Of a stretch of 40,531 bases of DNA, positions 21,016 through 25,628 are shown in pieces; positions within the stretch are counted from its first letter, which is position 1; every line of letters begins with the position of its first letter. A model generated the notes under the pieces. It was not told where the DNA came from. It saw only the letters and a list, made by a program, of their open reading frames with translations, and searched no databases. The translations under genes and the position numbers were made by a program. This DNA comes from an uncultured Bacteroidales bacterium. Its GTDB lineage: Bacteria; Bacteroidota; Bacteroidia; Bacteroidales; P3. Where the stretch lies: assembly GCA_947165345.1 (NCBI GenBank), contig CAMVAA010000004.1:1-40531 (forward strand). The letters are read 5' to 3'.

Positions 21016-21693
21016 ATGAGGCCTATAGCACATATACAGAGCCCGTTCAGGGAGAAGTTCGGAGTGCCGCGTCAGGCCGGCCTTGCCGACTGCGAGGCGC
21101 GGATCGTCTTCGAGCCGGAGTACCGCACCGCCGAGGCCGTCCGCGGCCTCGAGGAGTTCGAATATATCTGGCTTGTGTGGCTCTTCCACCTTGTGGACGG
21201 CGGCGGCGAGTTCCGGCCCACCGTGCGTCCGCCACGCCTGGGTGGCAACAGCAGGGTGGGGGTGTTCGCGACGCGCAGCCCCTTCAGGCCCAACCCCATA
21301 GGCCTTTCGTCGGTGCGGCTGCTGAGGATAGACATCGAGGCCGGTCTCGGACCGGTGCTCTATGTGGCGGGTGCCGACCTTGTGGACGGCACCCCAATAC
21401 TCGACATCAAACCCTATATCCCATACGCCGACGCGCACCCCGACGTCCGCGCCGGCTTTGCGCAGCAGGAGCCGACGCCGCTGGCCGTCGCCGACCCGGA
21501 GCGCCACTTGGAGCGCTTGCCGGCCGAGCTGCGCCGCACCGCCGAGGGAGCCCTCGGTGCCGACCCGCGGCCGCACTACCACAACGACCCCGAGAGGGTG
21601 TATGCTATGAGCCTGGGGGAGTGGACGGTACGGTTCAGGGTGGAGGATGGAAGGGTGTGGGTTTCGGCGTGCGAGAAAGGCAATGTGAGTTAA
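21016..21693 (+). CDS. trmO: tRNA (N6-threonylcarbamoyladenosine37-N6)-methyltransferase TrmO
   Basis: SAM-dependent enzyme that methylates t6A37 of tRNA-Thr. The length is 225 residues from the ATG at 21016 (MRPIAHIQSPFREKFGVPRQ), the usual family start; a GTG at 20980 overlapping the reductase stop would add 12 unconserved residues. Motifs: LEEFEYIWLVWLFH, RLGGNSRVGVFATRSPFRPNPIGLS (the SAM-site segment), GADLVDGTPILDIKPYIPYADAH. The TAA stop lies inside the first unit of a 7-bp array. Confidence 0.95.
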   Translation: MRPIAHIQSPFREKFGVPRQAGLADCEARIVFEPEYRTAEAVRGLEEFEYIWLVWLFHLVDGGGEFRPTVRPPRLGGNSRVGVFATRSPFRPNPIGLSSVRLLRIDIEAGLGPVLYVAGADLVDGTPILDIKPYIPYADAHPDVRAGFAQQEPTPLAVADPERHLERLPAELRRTAEGALGADPRPHYHNDPERVYAMSLGEWTVRFRVEDGRVWVSACEKGNVS

Positions 21694-21840
21694 GAGTTAT
21701 GGGTTATTGGTTATGGGTTATGGGTTATGGGTTATGGGTTAAGAGTTATGAGTTAAGAGTTATGAGTTAAGAGTTAAGAGTTAAGAGTTAAGAGTTTAGA
21801 GTTAAAGTGTGGTAGAGAGGGGGTAGAGAAGGGTGGGGTG
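21687..21840 (+). repeat. 7-bp array followed by an 11-bp-like tract
   Basis: About seventeen 7-base units (GAGTTAA, GAGTTAT, GGGTTAT, TGGTTAT) run from 21687 to 21805. The trmO stop codon is within the first unit. Then comes AGTGTGGTAGAGAGGGGGTAG and a short GGGGGTAGAGA-type tract. The same order, including AGTTAAAGTGTGGTAG, is seen at 27032-27197. The next 90 bases to the ECF promoter are G/T-rich without a gene. Confidence 0.9.
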
Positions 21841-21918: not shown

Positions 21919-21945
21919 GAAACGTATTTGATTGTTGAACGTCTA
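21919..21945 (+). promoter_or_regulatory. ECF-type promoter of the second sigma gene
   Basis: GAAAC (21919-21923), 17 bases, then GTCTA (21941-21945), close to the ECF consensus of GGAAC about 17 bases before GTC. It is 7 bases before the ATG at 21953, so transcription would start at or next to the start codon. Suggests the sigma factor drives its own gene. Confidence 0.6.
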
Positions 21946-21952
21946 TAACGAT

Positions 21953-22465
21953 ATGGACAGCATGGGCTATGCAGAGATGGTGGAAGGCTGCCGACGCCAC
22001 GATGCGGCGGCGCAGCGCGCCCTCTACGACGCTACGGCGCCGATGGCAATGGGTGTCTGTATGCGATATGCCGCCTCGCGCGAGGATGCGCAGGACATGC
22101 TGCAGGACGGCTATGTGAAGGTCTTCGAGCGTGTGGGTCAGCTGAGGGACAGCAAGCGGCTGATGTCGTGGGTGTACAGTGTGATGGTCAACAACGCCAT
22201 ACAGACCTGCCGCCACAACCGCTTCGAGCGCCTGGCGTCCGACATGGAGCCCCTGACCAAGCCGTTGGACCTGGAGCCCTACCTGATGCAGGACATCGTG
22301 GCCGCCATGCAACAGCTGAGCCCGCGGGAGAGGCTGGTGTTCAACCTCTTCACGGTGGAGGGCTACAGTGTGGACGAGGTGGCGAAGCGCACGCGGACCA
22401 CCAACGTGGCGGTGAGGGTGATGCTGAGCAGGGCCAGGGAGAAGATGAGGGAGGCGCTGAGTTGA
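21953..22465 (+). CDS. ECF-family RNA polymerase sigma factor
   Basis: A 170-residue protein from the ATG at 21953; ATGs at 21962 and 21977 are alternatives, because the ECF promoter leaves almost no leader. Region 2: FEELVEGC-like AEMVEGCRRHDAAAQRALYDATAPMAMGVCMRYA, then EDAQDMLQDGYVKVFERV. Region 4: LSPRERLVFNLFTVEGYSVDEVAKRTRTTNVAVRVMLSRAREKM, a helix-turn-helix. It is followed 60 bases later by a membrane protein that looks like its anti-sigma factor. Confidence 0.92.
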   Translation: MDSMGYAEMVEGCRRHDAAAQRALYDATAPMAMGVCMRYAASREDAQDMLQDGYVKVFERVGQLRDSKRLMSWVYSVMVNNAIQTCRHNRFERLASDMEPLTKPLDLEPYLMQDIVAAMQQLSPRERLVFNLFTVEGYSVDEVAKRTRTTNVAVRVMLSRAREKMREALS

Positions 22466-22525
22466 AAACAATGGCGGACGAGCAGTCCGCGCGGCAAGGA
22501 AAGACAAAACACTAATATATTGGAT

Positions 22526-23371
22526 ATGAAGGACTGGAAGGAATATGAGGTAGAGCCCGACGAGGGAGTGTTCGAGAAGGTGGAGAGACGGCTGAAGATG
22601 CGCCGGCTGTGGCGTGTGGGCGGCTGGACGGCCGCCGCGGCGGTGGTAGTGGCCGTGGGGGTGCTGGTGGCGACGATGAGGCCGACGGTGCCGACGCAGG
22701 AGCGCGAGAGGGTGGCAGAGAAGGCGGTGGTGCCGACTATGCCGGCCGAGGTGCCCGTGGTGGCCGAGGCGACGGACGAGAGACCCGAAACGGCGACGCC
22801 GACGGCCGCCGTGCTGCCTACGACGGCGGTGCGTGAGACTGTGGCGCCCGTTGTGGCGGCGACGGCGGTGCAGAGCGCGACGTCCGAGCCCGCCAAGGCC
22901 GTCGCCGAGACGGCGGTGGCCGCAGCCCCGGTGGCGAAGCCTGCCCCGGCGCCGGCAGCGCCGAAAGCAGAGGCGGAGCCCGTGCGGACCGCTGGCGGCG
23001 AGGGTGAAGAGAACGCCGTGGCCGAGGGGACTGCCGAAGTGCATGCCGCCAAAGCCGGCGAGGGGGGGACGACCCCGACGGTCCACGAAGACAACGTGGT
23101 GTGGGTGCCCAACGCCATAGCCCCGCACAGCGACGTGGACGACGTGCGCACCTTCCGGATGGTCTTCACGTCGACGGTGGACAATTTCAACATACAGATC
23201 TTCAACCGAAGAGGCATGCGCGTGTACAGCAGCAGCGACCCGCAGTTCCAGTGGGACGGCACCTTCGACGGCAGCGATGTGCCGCAGGGAGCCTATGTGT
23301 GGGTGGCCACCTTCCGCGACACGAGCGGCCGTCTGCGCCAGGAGAAGGGCACCGTGACGGTGGTGCGGTGA
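22526..23371 (+). CDS. Putative anti-sigma membrane protein fused to a T9SS type B (gliding-associated) C-terminal domain
   Basis: A 281-residue protein. A short acidic/basic cytoplasmic start (MKDWKEYEVEPDEGVFEKVERRL) resembles the N-terminus of small anti-sigma factors. One membrane helix (about 33-51, WTAAAAVVVAVGVLVATM) has no cleavage site. Residues 55-190 are a Pro/Ala/Val/Glu-rich, probably extended periplasmic linker. Residues 192-281 (VWVPNAIAPHSDVDD, IQIFNRRGMRVYSS, QWDGTFDG, GAYVWVATFRDTSGR, GTVTVVR) match the gliding motility-associated C-terminal domain used as type B T9SS sorting signal. An inner-membrane protein carrying such a domain is unusual. It is cotranscribed with the ECF gene and followed by a terminator. 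Start is the ATG at 22526, not the TTG at 22520. Confidence 0.85.
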   Translation: MKDWKEYEVEPDEGVFEKVERRLKMRRLWRVGGWTAAAAVVVAVGVLVATMRPTVPTQERERVAEKAVVPTMPAEVPVVAEATDERPETATPTAAVLPTTAVRETVAPVVAATAVQSATSEPAKAVAETAVAAAPVAKPAPAPAAPKAEAEPVRTAGGEGEENAVAEGTAEVHAAKAGEGGTTPTVHEDNVVWVPNAIAPHSDVDDVRTFRMVFTSTVDNFNIQIFNRRGMRVYSSSDPQFQWDGTFDGSDVPQGAYVWVATFRDTSGRLRQEKGTVTVVR

Positions 23372-23584: not shown

Positions 23585-23951
23585 GGGCATGGACTGTTCT
23601 ATCGCCGTATGTAGCAGTGCATAAGGAGGAAAGTCCGGGCAGCTCGAGCCACCATGCTTCCTAACGGGAAGTGGCTGCGGCTGTAAGGCCGCAGTCAAGG
23701 AGAGCGCCACAGAAAAGATACCGCCCCGCGAGGGGTAAGGGTGAAAACGCGGGGTAAGAGCCCACGACGCGACCCGGCGACGGGCGCGATGGCAAGCCCC
23801 ATGGGCTGAAAGACCAAGTATACCGGCACGCCTTCGGGCAGCGGACAGGCTCGTCTGCATTGCCGGGGGGTAGGTTGATAGAGGCTGTCGGCGACGGCAG
23901 CAGTAGATTGATGATAGAACACGACAGAACCCGGCTTACAGGTCCGTGCCC
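23585..23951 (+). ncRNA. rnpB: RNase P RNA (bacterial type A)
   Basis: The catalytic RNA that removes the 5' leader from pre-tRNAs. The first and last bases pair as P1 (GGGCATGGAC at 23585-23594 with GTCCGTGCCC at 23942-23951). Conserved blocks are present in order: GAGGAAAGTCCGGGC (P4 and CRI), GGAGAGCGCCACAGAAA (CRII-III), GGTAAGGGTGAAAACGCGGG, CCCCATGGGCTGAAAG-type P-loop region, and AGAACCCGGCTTACAGG near the 3' end. The length of 367 is typical. It is followed by TTTTTT and then a 7-bp array. Confidence 0.96.
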
Positions 23952-23960
23952 TTTTTTAGT

Positions 23961-24016
23961 GTTAAGTGAGAAGTGTTAAGTGTTAAGTGTTAAGTGTTAA
24001 GTGGGAAGTGTTAAGT
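23961..24016 (+). repeat. 7-bp array after RNase P RNA
   Basis: Eight units: GTTAAGT six times, with GAGAAGT and GGGAAGT interspersed. It starts right after the T-run of rnpB and ends 11 bases before the ATG of the DUF4810 lipoprotein. Confidence 0.9.
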
Positions 24017-24027
24017 TTTTGGAAAGT

Positions 24028-24846
24028 ATGTTGAAAGACAAGTCGATATATGTTATTGCAGTGGTTGTGGTGCTGCTGGCGGGCTGTACGGGCCGCTATG
24101 TGGGTGTGCCGTCGGACCGCGTGCTGGCGTACCAGACGCGGCCTACCTACGGGAGCCTCTACGAGCTGGCCCACGCCTATGCCGAGGCCATCAACAGTGC
24201 CGTGGCCGAGGACACGCTGCACCCCGGCATGCTGGCCGACTATGGAGTGGCGCTTGCGCTGATGGGTCATGACGGCGAGGCCTGCCGTATGCTCAACGCC
24301 GAGGCGCGAGCGTTCCCGCAGAGCAGCCGGATGGTGGCGCGCATCAAAGAGAGGCTGCTGCCCGGCATGGTGGAAGACACCACGGTCAACGGGACCGTGG
24401 GTGTGGACATGGGCAAGCTGGAGGGTTGGGCCTACGACAGCATCGCCGCCCTGATGCCGCTGCCGCGCATAGTCTCGGTGGTGGACAGCACGGACAGCGT
24501 GCGTGTGACGCAGCAGACGCCGACGGACTCGGTGGAGTACCCGATACGCCTCACCGCCAACCAGAAGCGGGAGCTGCTGGCCGCCGAGCAGGAGAAGGCT
24601 GAGAAGAGGAGACAGTTTGTGGCCGACTCGATAGCCGCCGCCAAGCAGGCCGTCATAGACGCCCGGAAGCAGGCCCAGATAGACCGTCGGAACGCCAAGA
24701 AAGAGAAGCAGCGGCTGAAGGAGGAGATGGACAAGCAGCGCAAGAAGGAGGCCAAGGAGAAGGCCTTGCAGCGCGAGAAGGAGAAGCAGCAGCGCGACGC
24801 TGAACGCCGCGAGCGCAACAAGAAGAAGAAAGGAGGTGCGAAATGA
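24028..24846 (+). CDS. DUF4810-family lipoprotein with charged coiled-coil tail
   Basis: A 272-residue protein from the ATG at 24028; earlier starts translate the repeat array. Lipoprotein signal MLKDKSIYVIAVVVVLLAGC with Cys20. Residues 25-120 (YGSLYELAHAYAEAINSAV, LADYGVALALMGHDGEACRMLNAEARAFPQSSRMV) match DUF4810, a TPR-like domain. Residues about 175-272 are a very charged Lys/Glu/Arg helix, probably a coiled coil. DUF4810 and GNA1162 (next gene, overlapping by 4 bases) normally form a three-gene set with a CsgG-like outer-membrane lipoprotein; no csgG is present here. Confidence 0.8.
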   Translation: MLKDKSIYVIAVVVVLLAGCTGRYVGVPSDRVLAYQTRPTYGSLYELAHAYAEAINSAVAEDTLHPGMLADYGVALALMGHDGEACRMLNAEARAFPQSSRMVARIKERLLPGMVEDTTVNGTVGVDMGKLEGWAYDSIAALMPLPRIVSVVDSTDSVRVTQQTPTDSVEYPIRLTANQKRELLAAEQEKAEKRRQFVADSIAAAKQAVIDARKQAQIDRRNAKKEKQRLKEEMDKQRKKEAKEKALQREKEKQQRDAERRERNKKKKGGAK

Positions 24847-25628
24847 GGAACCAGAGACTGTGGAAGGGAGTGGCGGTGTGCTGTGCGGTGCTGGCGACGG
24901 CGGCCGTGCTGGCGTCGTGCAAGGGCGAGAAGAAGATAGTGCAGTACAGCCAGATGTACAAGGAGACGCCGGCTGTGATATACATAGCGCCGATCAACGA
25001 CCTGTCGTCGCGCCGTGCCCTGCGCGAGCTGAACGACTCGGCCTACAACGCCTCGCTGAACACCGCCGTGAAGCACTGCTACCTGACGGCGGCGAGTCCG
25101 CTGGTGAACCGCGGATACTACGTCATGGGCCCCTTGGCGTCGGCCCAGCTGTCCGCCACCGAGAGCCGTACGGGCAAGCAGCTGCGGAACGAGAGCATCG
25201 AGGACCTGTATACGGGACTCGGGATTGACGCGGTGCTGTTTGTGGACATCGTGGAGTGGACGAACACCCACGCGGCGTGGACGGTGGAGGCGGAGTACTA
25301 TGTGCGGTCGGCGCGGACGGGGGGCGAGCTGCTTTTCGCCCACGTGAAGGCCACCAAGCTGCTGCCCACGGACCACAAGGGGAACCCCAAGCCGCTGAAG
25401 GCGGACCTGGACTTTGCGGAGCGCTACGGCTGCGACCTCGAGACGGCGCAGCGCTGCCGGCTGGTGGAGATACTGAACGAATATGTGCTGAGCGACCTGC
25501 CGTCGGGCAGCCGTGCGCGCGTCGACGAGAAGGAGCGATATGTGAAGTCGCACCCCGAGTATTTCAACCTGCGCATACACCGCGACGGGAGTGTGGAGAT
25601 GCTAAAGAGCACGGAGGAGGGGAGTTGA
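24843..25628 (+). CDS. DUF799 / GNA1162-family lipoprotein
   Basis: A 261-residue protein. Lipoprotein signal with Cys26 (AAVLASC). The core YKETPAVIYIAPINDLSSRRALREL, then GYYVMGPLA and GLGIDAVLFVDIVEWTNTHAAW, matches the DUF799/GNA1162 fold, related to the TolB N-domain and thought to work with CsgG-like pores. It is coupled to the DUF4810 gene by an ATGA-type overlap. The TGA stop is the end of the first unit of a 7-bp array. Confidence 0.8.
   Translation: MRNQRLWKGVAVCCAVLATAAVLASCKGEKKIVQYSQMYKETPAVIYIAPINDLSSRRALRELNDSAYNASLNTAVKHCYLTAASPLVNRGYYVMGPLASAQLSATESRTGKQLRNESIEDLYTGLGIDAVLFVDIVEWTNTHAAWTVEAEYYVRSARTGGELLFAHVKATKLLPTDHKGNPKPLKADLDFAERYGCDLETAQRCRLVEILNEYVLSDLPSGSRARVDEKERYVKSHPEYFNLRIHRDGSVEMLKSTEEGS

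Follow-up and report, generated by a model that had tools for sequence, protein, structure and literature searches.

A predicted ECF sigma factor and its membrane-tethered, T9SS-tagged anti-sigma-like partner in Bacteroidales

Two adjacent genes in the window, the whole 40,531-nucleotide stretch of DNA from an uncultured Bacteroidales bacterium that was analyzed, encode an ECF sigma factor and a single-helix membrane protein that ends in a T9SS type B (CHU_C) domain. The architecture of this pair is conserved, and its promoter motif is shared with genes for T9SS cargo. From homology and pattern, the membrane protein is predicted to act as an anti-sigma factor, and the sigma factor to transcribe its own operon together with a regulon of cargo genes. 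The pair is probably an autoregulated ECF sigma/membrane anti-sigma switch for T9SS cargo genes, in which docking of the tag would lead to release of the sigma factor. The positions of the features discussed are collected in Table 1.

Table 1. Features of the sigma factor/CHU_C locus (window positions)
Feature	Position	Strand	Remarks
Direct repeat GTTAA-N5-GTTAA	21899..21913	+	directly 5' of the -35 element
Predicted ECF-type promoter of the sigma operon, AAC-N17-GTCTAT	21921..21946	+	alignment of genus loci and motif test
ECF sigma factor gene	21953..22465	+	likely start ATG 21953; listed ORF opens at TTG 21932
Anti-sigma-like protein ending in a T9SS type B domain	22526..23371	+	281 aa
Cytoplasmic N-terminus, residues 1-30	22526..22615	+	contains PDEGVFEKV, the variant of a PxxxWxxI-like motif seen in the genus
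Single membrane helix, about residues 31-50	22616..22675	+	hydrophobic stretch and AlphaFold
Disordered tether, about residues 51-190	22676..23095	+	rich in Ala/Val/Pro/Glu/Thr; AlphaFold low confidence
CHU_C/T9SS type B domain, residues 191-281	23096..23368	+	Pfam, NCBIfam and predicted fold

The domain order put forward for the CHU_C protein in the first-pass annotation, a short N-terminus followed by one helix, a linker and a gliding-associated domain, was confirmed by Pfam, NCBIfam and AlphaFold. The Pfam profile CHU_C (PF13585) matched residues 194-278 over profile positions 3-85 of 86 (E 1.6e-12, 47.8 bits, cut-off 27), and the NCBIfam T9SS type B model TIGR04131 gave an E-value of 7.8e-8 and 32.4 bits, slightly under its cut-off of 35. 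Among related proteins, TIGR04131 was matched in 23/23 members of alignment A3 and CHU_C in 30/30 members of alignment A1 (E ≤ 0.001). The AlphaFold model, made with 24 sequences, contained a helix at residues 15-50 and a beta-sandwich at residues 191-281 (block pLDDT 90-97), separated by a tether of ~140 residues that was without secondary structure (block pLDDT 44-59). The median tether length of the 54 CHU-type proteins was 138; the lowest value was negative, owing to a miscalled helix.

Inspection of the polypeptide sequence revealed a lone hydrophobic stretch starting at residue 31, preceded by a segment with 9 K/R and 8 D/E in 31 residues; the membrane helix is oriented N-in. Judged from these features, the N-terminus is not expected to be a cleavable signal peptide, as the same annotation had held: its charged n-region of ~30 residues appears too long, the model helix spans residues 15-50, and a cleaved signal peptide was rejected on sequence grounds. 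In FecI/FecR surface signaling the partner is also TonB-dependent. A FecR-type anti-sigma factor was likewise rejected, since neither Pfam nor NCBIfam gave a FecR match at the thresholds applied. Matches of the window protein to PycTM and FlgD_ig (Pfam) and to GltJ and ZipA (NCBIfam) all fell below cut-off, and such hits were read as helix, Ig-like or low-complexity similarity, and a phmmer search of the partner protein against PDB sequences returned no match at E ≤ 1.

The gene immediately 5' of the CHU_C gene was identified as an ECF sigma factor gene by its match to TIGR02937 (NCBIfam, E 4.1e-25) and by regions 2 and 4 in Pfam, and 60 nt separate its stop codon from the ATG of the partner at 22526. 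Translation of the sigma factor more likely begins at ATG 21953 (or ATG 21962) than at TTG 21932, because the TTG falls within the conserved promoter. Repeats comparable to the GTTAA direct repeat were seen by eye at roughly the same position at many of the 30 genus loci described below; this element could be an UP element or an activator/binding site with its copies one helical turn apart.

Several other elements adjoin the pair. A complete class A RNase P RNA occupies positions 23586-23954 (Rfam RF00010, E 3.9e-75), directly 3' of the anti-sigma-like gene, and two neighboring genes at 24001-25628 gave weak, below-cut-off DUF4810 and GNA1162-like matches. The latter are perhaps a lipoprotein set, and relatives of the first of them were found 3' of the sigma/CHU_C pair at several genus loci. 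Intergenic runs of imperfect repeats, e.g. ttatgggttatgggt and gttaagtgttaagt, are present at 21690-21800 and 23955-24000.

A search with the sigma factor yielded matches in 150 of 190 genomes of the family at E ≤ 1e-10. At the best 30 sigma loci, which belong to one genus and to different genomes, a CHU_C relative was located 3' of the sigma gene on the same strand in 30/30 cases, and TrmO lay 5' of the sigma gene in 29. That the gene order was the same at all 30 of these best loci argues that the pairing is not due to chance. A search of 120 genomes of the genus with a profile built from these relatives gave at least 96 full-length partner hits. One of the partner sequences used (L021) begins at an in-frame codon that is no start codon. 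Among the matches listed, a sigma hit lay directly upstream of 94 of the 96, where, for genomes with several sigma matches, the one beside the partner was entered (e.g. the second best in G047); for the remaining two (G046 and G060), the sigma factor was not among the matches listed. Twenty-four of the 120 genomes had no full-length partner among the matches listed, two of them having partial ones, and CHU_C matches were present in all 120.

Six further genera of the family had pairs whose partner is 18-25% identical to the window protein. The pair was seen at 20/20 loci from other genera (L094-L113), a count biased by the fact that these loci were mostly picked for adjacent sigma and partner hits, and one of them, L111, belongs to a second, paralogous type. 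Eighteen further sigma loci were inspected; two stopped at contig ends, and at the other 16 the sigma gene was followed by a protein that shares the plan. Fifteen of these 16 were of the second, paralogous type (one coinciding with L111); L130 was of the first type. This second sigma/CHU_C pair (L115-L128, L131) occurs in the same family and has a divergent tag, e.g. with YRNDFC close to where WDG is usually found.

Of 20 loci picked by score and ORF size in other families of the order (L132-L151), 13 had a sigma gene and a protein with an N-in helix; at the other seven, the CHU_C protein had a signal-peptide-like start and no sigma hit was found nearby. A sample of 247 genomes from the phylum gave 25 matching genomes at E ≤ 1e-20, in which no match was full length except the window's own, one 300-aa ORF (G571) being borderline. 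The check suggested earlier, a search for the same domain order beside ECF genes in other Bacteroidota, found it in the genus, in other genera and in other families of the order, and gave no full-length member besides the window's own in the phylum sample at E ≤ 1e-20.

The plan of the window protein resembles that of the Dma1-3 proteins, which, in the available portion of the published account, consist of an N-terminal anti-sigma domain, a helix, a disordered tether and a C-terminal barrel and are associated with ECF21 sigma factors (PMC13088901). One membrane helix, a long disordered tether and an adjacent ECF sigma gene are all present in the window pair; an N-terminal sigma-binding region is predicted from a shared motif, and the C-terminal module would similarly be aimed at the outer membrane. 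By contrast, this module is a CHU_C/T9SS type B domain here and an outer-membrane beta-barrel in Dma, and the predicted regulon here comprises T9SS cargo, whereas the same portion of that account gives vesiculation and glycan loci for Dma (PMC13088901). The window protein was not filed as Dma because it has no barrel; it looks like a Dma-like anti-sigma factor in which the barrel has been swapped for a T9SS tag.

This relationship was also apparent when other families of Bacteroidales were sampled, 24 genomes in all, and the best sigma relatives were inspected at 30 loci. Nineteen of these had a barrel-like partner with the same N-terminal plan (classed by eye from the C-termini), one (L251) had a CHU_C partner, and 10 had partners that were other, truncated, unclassed or absent; the genomes had been selected for few CHU_C matches (1 to 3), which favors barrel-type partners. 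Pfam detected OMP_b-brl_2 in eight of the nine barrel-type proteins scanned (L250 gave no match). The tenth protein scanned, L251 from another family (L251:138-1415, minus strand), contained CHU_C, with PKD domains between tether and tag. The motif [PV]x1-4Wxx[IVLM] preceded the helix in 40/54 CHU-type proteins (shuffle mean 4.1) and in 18/19 barrel-type proteins (shuffle mean 2.5), the W being mostly replaced by F or Y in the window's genus.

The sigma factor of the window and those beside barrel-type proteins belong to the same sigma family. In a midpoint-rooted tree of 72 sigma factors (54 CHU and 18 barrel, one short sigma from the 19 barrel loci being omitted), the barrel-linked sigma factors branched among the CHU-type ones, and partner type required 2 changes (2-3 in bootstraps, 16.2 with shuffled labels), although a single change is also possible. 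At L269, in another family, a sigma-like ORF of 376 aa was observed, which is possibly a fusion of a sigma factor with its membrane partner, an arrangement described for Dma3.

The promoter motifs were first recognized by eye and then tested, and the shuffled controls leave relatedness in. The motif upstream of the sigma gene was found in its strict form at 14/30 genus loci (shuffle mean 0.09) and in a relaxed form at 21/30 (shuffle mean 1.47). A search of 24 genomes with the promoter motif gave three matches in the window's own genome, one of which lies 57 nt 5' of the ATG of a type B cargo gene of ~1000 residues. Within that genome, the tag of this cargo protein is the one most closely related to the anti-sigma tag; identities were compared for three of the five other CHU_C tags (those of L004 and L006 were left out). 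G080, in which the sigma promoter ends TTGTCTAT, gave seven matches in the same search: one before the sigma gene, three before type A or type B cargo genes (L206, L207, L221) and one at an ORF with a similar start that is cut by a contig end (L208), the other two being left out.

Loci L202-L221 were hand-picked as promoter-like, and the unselected tally is that of the stricter pattern AACAN{14,15}GCGTCTAT in 12 genomes, which gave 34 matches compared with 13 for the reversed control pattern. These consisted of seven sigma operons, 14 T9SS-tagged cargo genes, one unclear case, seven copies of one coding site and five others, such that T9SS cargo made up 14 of the 27 non-sigma matches (11 type B and 3 type A). 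In the window's own genome, 2/2 strict matches head type B cargo genes, and behind one of these lies another type B gene. At the sigma gene itself, the strict motif was found in only 7/12 genomes, the window's own being outside them (AACG..ACGTCTAT).

The assignment of the 34 matches was as follows. Cargo tags were scanned at G029:C55, G029:C64, G049:C139, G073:C14, G073:C22, G096:C8, G097:C9, G103:C11, G108:C16 and G000:C6, and those of G000:C8, G088:C129, G097:C2 and G029:C73 rest on a CHU_C profile match at the same ORF. The type A tag of G073:C14 scored under the Pfam cut-off and over that of NCBIfam, and the tag of G000:C6 over the Pfam cut-off and under that of NCBIfam. The recurrent match AACAGGCTGTTGAA.TCGGCGTCTAT and a close form of it (7/34) were rejected as promoters and attributed to one conserved coding site, with two copies inspected (L210, L234) and five assigned by the matched letters alone. 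Five further matches were rejected as sitting within or beside unrelated ORFs, and the unclear one (G088:C187) has a short secreted-like ORF 3' of it. On contig C6 of G000, two type B cargo genes from a single family (L222 and L223), both with CHU_C, lie in tandem behind one predicted ECF promoter.

The ~1000-residue type B cargo gene was then compared across 20 genomes, using presumed orthologues taken from the top CHU_C matches (L201 has a different N-terminus). The strict motif was present upstream in eight (shuffle mean 0) and absent in 12, and AAC..CGTCTA[TC] was found before the sigma gene in 8/8 genomes with the cargo motif versus 0/12 without it. A housekeeping-like TAnnTTTG box lies closer to the ATG in several cargo genes (upstream regions L183, L184, L191 and L195); its position beside the ECF-type motif suggests that such genes may have two promoters.

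The sigma and cargo promoters changed together in two other genera. In genus g10 (g1, g7 and g10 are genus labels assigned by the search), AAAC[AG]..GTGTTA was found in 6/6 sigma upstream regions, two of them near-identical, and in 5/6 type B cargo upstream regions, three of them near-identical. In genus g7, AACAA..GTGTC[AT] was found in 3/3 sigma regions and 3/9 cargo regions; the motif-bearing cargo genes encode 861-870 residues and are presumably orthologous, and the other six lack the g7 motif. Cross-tests were negative, with 0/6 g10 cargo regions matching the g1 motif and 0/20 g1 cargo regions matching either the g10 or the g7 motif. Such joint change is expected if one sigma factor reads both the sigma and the cargo genes.

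Of the secretion machinery, SprA was found in 180 of 189 genomes of the family. The search gave no SprA for the genome of the window, which is 74% complete, and given the presence of SprA in 180/189 family genomes this was put down to incompleteness. PorP/SprF-like matches numbered 2-4 per genome in 15 genomes and three in the window's genome; all three are on other contigs, and none adjoins the pair. Type B tags are described, in the accessible parts of two studies, as bound by PorP/SprF-like barrels and as having five conserved motifs required for secretion (PMC9143113, PMC12618676). The window protein shares the type B C-terminal domain with such substrates but has no signal-peptide-like start, and its helix should anchor it in the inner membrane. 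It also differs from them in having no adjacent shuttle gene in its own genome and in that its cytoplasmic partner is a predicted sigma factor.

FlgM, the soluble anti-sigma factor of sigma-28, is exported by the flagellar system. The likeness to the window pair lies in the coupling of an anti-sigma factor to a secretion line whose substrates are controlled by the sigma factor; the difference is that FlgM is soluble and uses flagellar export, so that both family and machine are distinct. A second comparison is provided by PorXY-SigP/PorA of Porphyromonas gingivalis, in which a protein with a T9SS tag provides input to an autoregulated ECF sigma factor controlling T9SS genes, and feedback of PorA on machine genes has been proposed (PMC7712824). 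PorA, however, is a surface protein that acts via the PorXY two-component pathway, and in the available text of that study the named SigP targets include machine genes and a tagged anti-sigma factor is not named (PMC7712824). In Flavobacterium psychrophilum SM6, T9SS genes and an ECF/anti-sigma pair are driven by promoters of the ECF type that have a CGT -10 box, but the T9SS targets named in the text available are machine parts, e.g. GldN and PorU (PMC9723704). No report of an anti-sigma factor bearing a gliding motility-associated C-terminal or T9SS domain was found among the matches listed from the open-access literature.

The following minimal scheme can be drawn from these comparisons. 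The short cytoplasmic N-terminus would hold the sigma factor at the inner membrane; the tether would span the periplasm, ~140 residues probably sufficing to reach the outer membrane; and the C-terminal domain would present a cargo-type export tag to the outer-membrane T9SS machinery, in the position that an outer-membrane barrel occupies in the barrel-type relatives that share this plan. The receptor of the tag would most likely be a PorP/SprF-like type B shuttle, or possibly the SprA translocon. Were shuttle sites free, the tag would be captured, and a pull or triggered cleavage could liberate the sigma factor, which would then transcribe its own operon and T9SS cargo genes; the cargo products would refill the shuttles and thereby restore repression. 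Docking and capture, like signal direction and the mode of release, are what we infer. With T9SS cargo as the predicted targets, a tag docked on cargo shuttles would indicate that export capacity is free. It is a tentative possibility, short of an even expectation, that the protein is a sensor of T9SS vacancy: its tag would compete for type B shuttles with the target cargo, and shuttles left empty would capture the anti-sigma factor, thereby freeing the sigma factor and switching on cargo synthesis.

The original suggestion that an anti-sigma factor reports on the T9SS is partly supported, by a start that does not resemble a cleavable signal peptide, the conserved pair and the N-terminal motif common to barrel-type proteins beside the same sigma family. 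The suspected link to the T9SS is strengthened by the predicted regulon, since T9SS cargo genes share the sigma promoter motif. The relationship to Dma, the promoter, the cargo regulon and the wide distribution of the pair go beyond that suggestion.

Structure comparison of the CHU_C domain with the PDB bears on a different interpretation, in which the protein is a Dma-like anti-sigma factor whose CHU_C domain serves as a periplasmic, ligand-binding Ig-like sensor with no T9SS contact, the cargo regulon reflecting general surface remodeling. The top matches were Ig-like folds outside the T9SS, in favor of this interpretation; the T9SS-bound substrate tags 8gl8_D (E 4e-4) and 8glk_D (E 3.5e-3) and PorU (6za2, E 1.4e-3) were among the weaker ones. 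The lack of a shuttle gene adjoining the pair and the existence of barrel-type relatives without a T9SS tag point the same way. An Ig-like sensor is nevertheless unlikely: every member scanned had a near full-length type B match, the predicted targets themselves carry T9SS tags, and the tag of the window protein is 43% identical to that of a predicted target, its closest relative elsewhere in the genome, whereas its identity to the partners examined from other genera does not exceed 36%.

Somewhat less likely still, by analogy with FlgM, is that the protein is a true T9SS substrate whose periplasmic part would be cut from its anchor and secreted, the loss serving as a measure of secretion flux. 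The type B domain and the identity of the predicted targets as T9SS substrates are consistent with such a route, but it is opposed by the lack of a known cleavage site and by an N-terminus unlike a signal peptide. In addition, the tag of the type B protein PG1035 apparently stays uncleaved and remains bound to PorP, according to the accessible part of the study concerned (PMC9143113). CHU_C proteins are common in these genomes, yet it is very improbable that this one is an ordinary surface protein with an uncleaved anchor, in a chance position after a sigma gene and without a regulatory role, because the order is kept in 94/96 genus hits (among the matches listed), in other genera down to 18-25% identity and in other families, the N-terminal motif is common to Dma-plan proteins, and promoters are shared with cargo.

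The preferred reading, a sigma/anti-sigma switch for cargo genes, provides a regulator whose export signal is of the cargo kind and whose predicted targets are cargo genes, which makes feedback from the T9SS to transcription testable. The promoter motifs offer a code with which T9SS cargo regulons of uncultured rumen Bacteroidales could be predicted. The comparison with barrel-type relatives suggests that tethered anti-sigma factors have an exchangeable module, either a barrel or a T9SS tag, at their outer-membrane end. Should the vacancy sensor prove true, the T9SS would have a feedback loop coupled to secretion, built on a Dma-type chassis with barrel and cargo tag as its exchangeable ends and present in many Bacteroidales families. 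The findings suggest that rumen bacteria may monitor the export of their own proteins and set their output of cargo accordingly.
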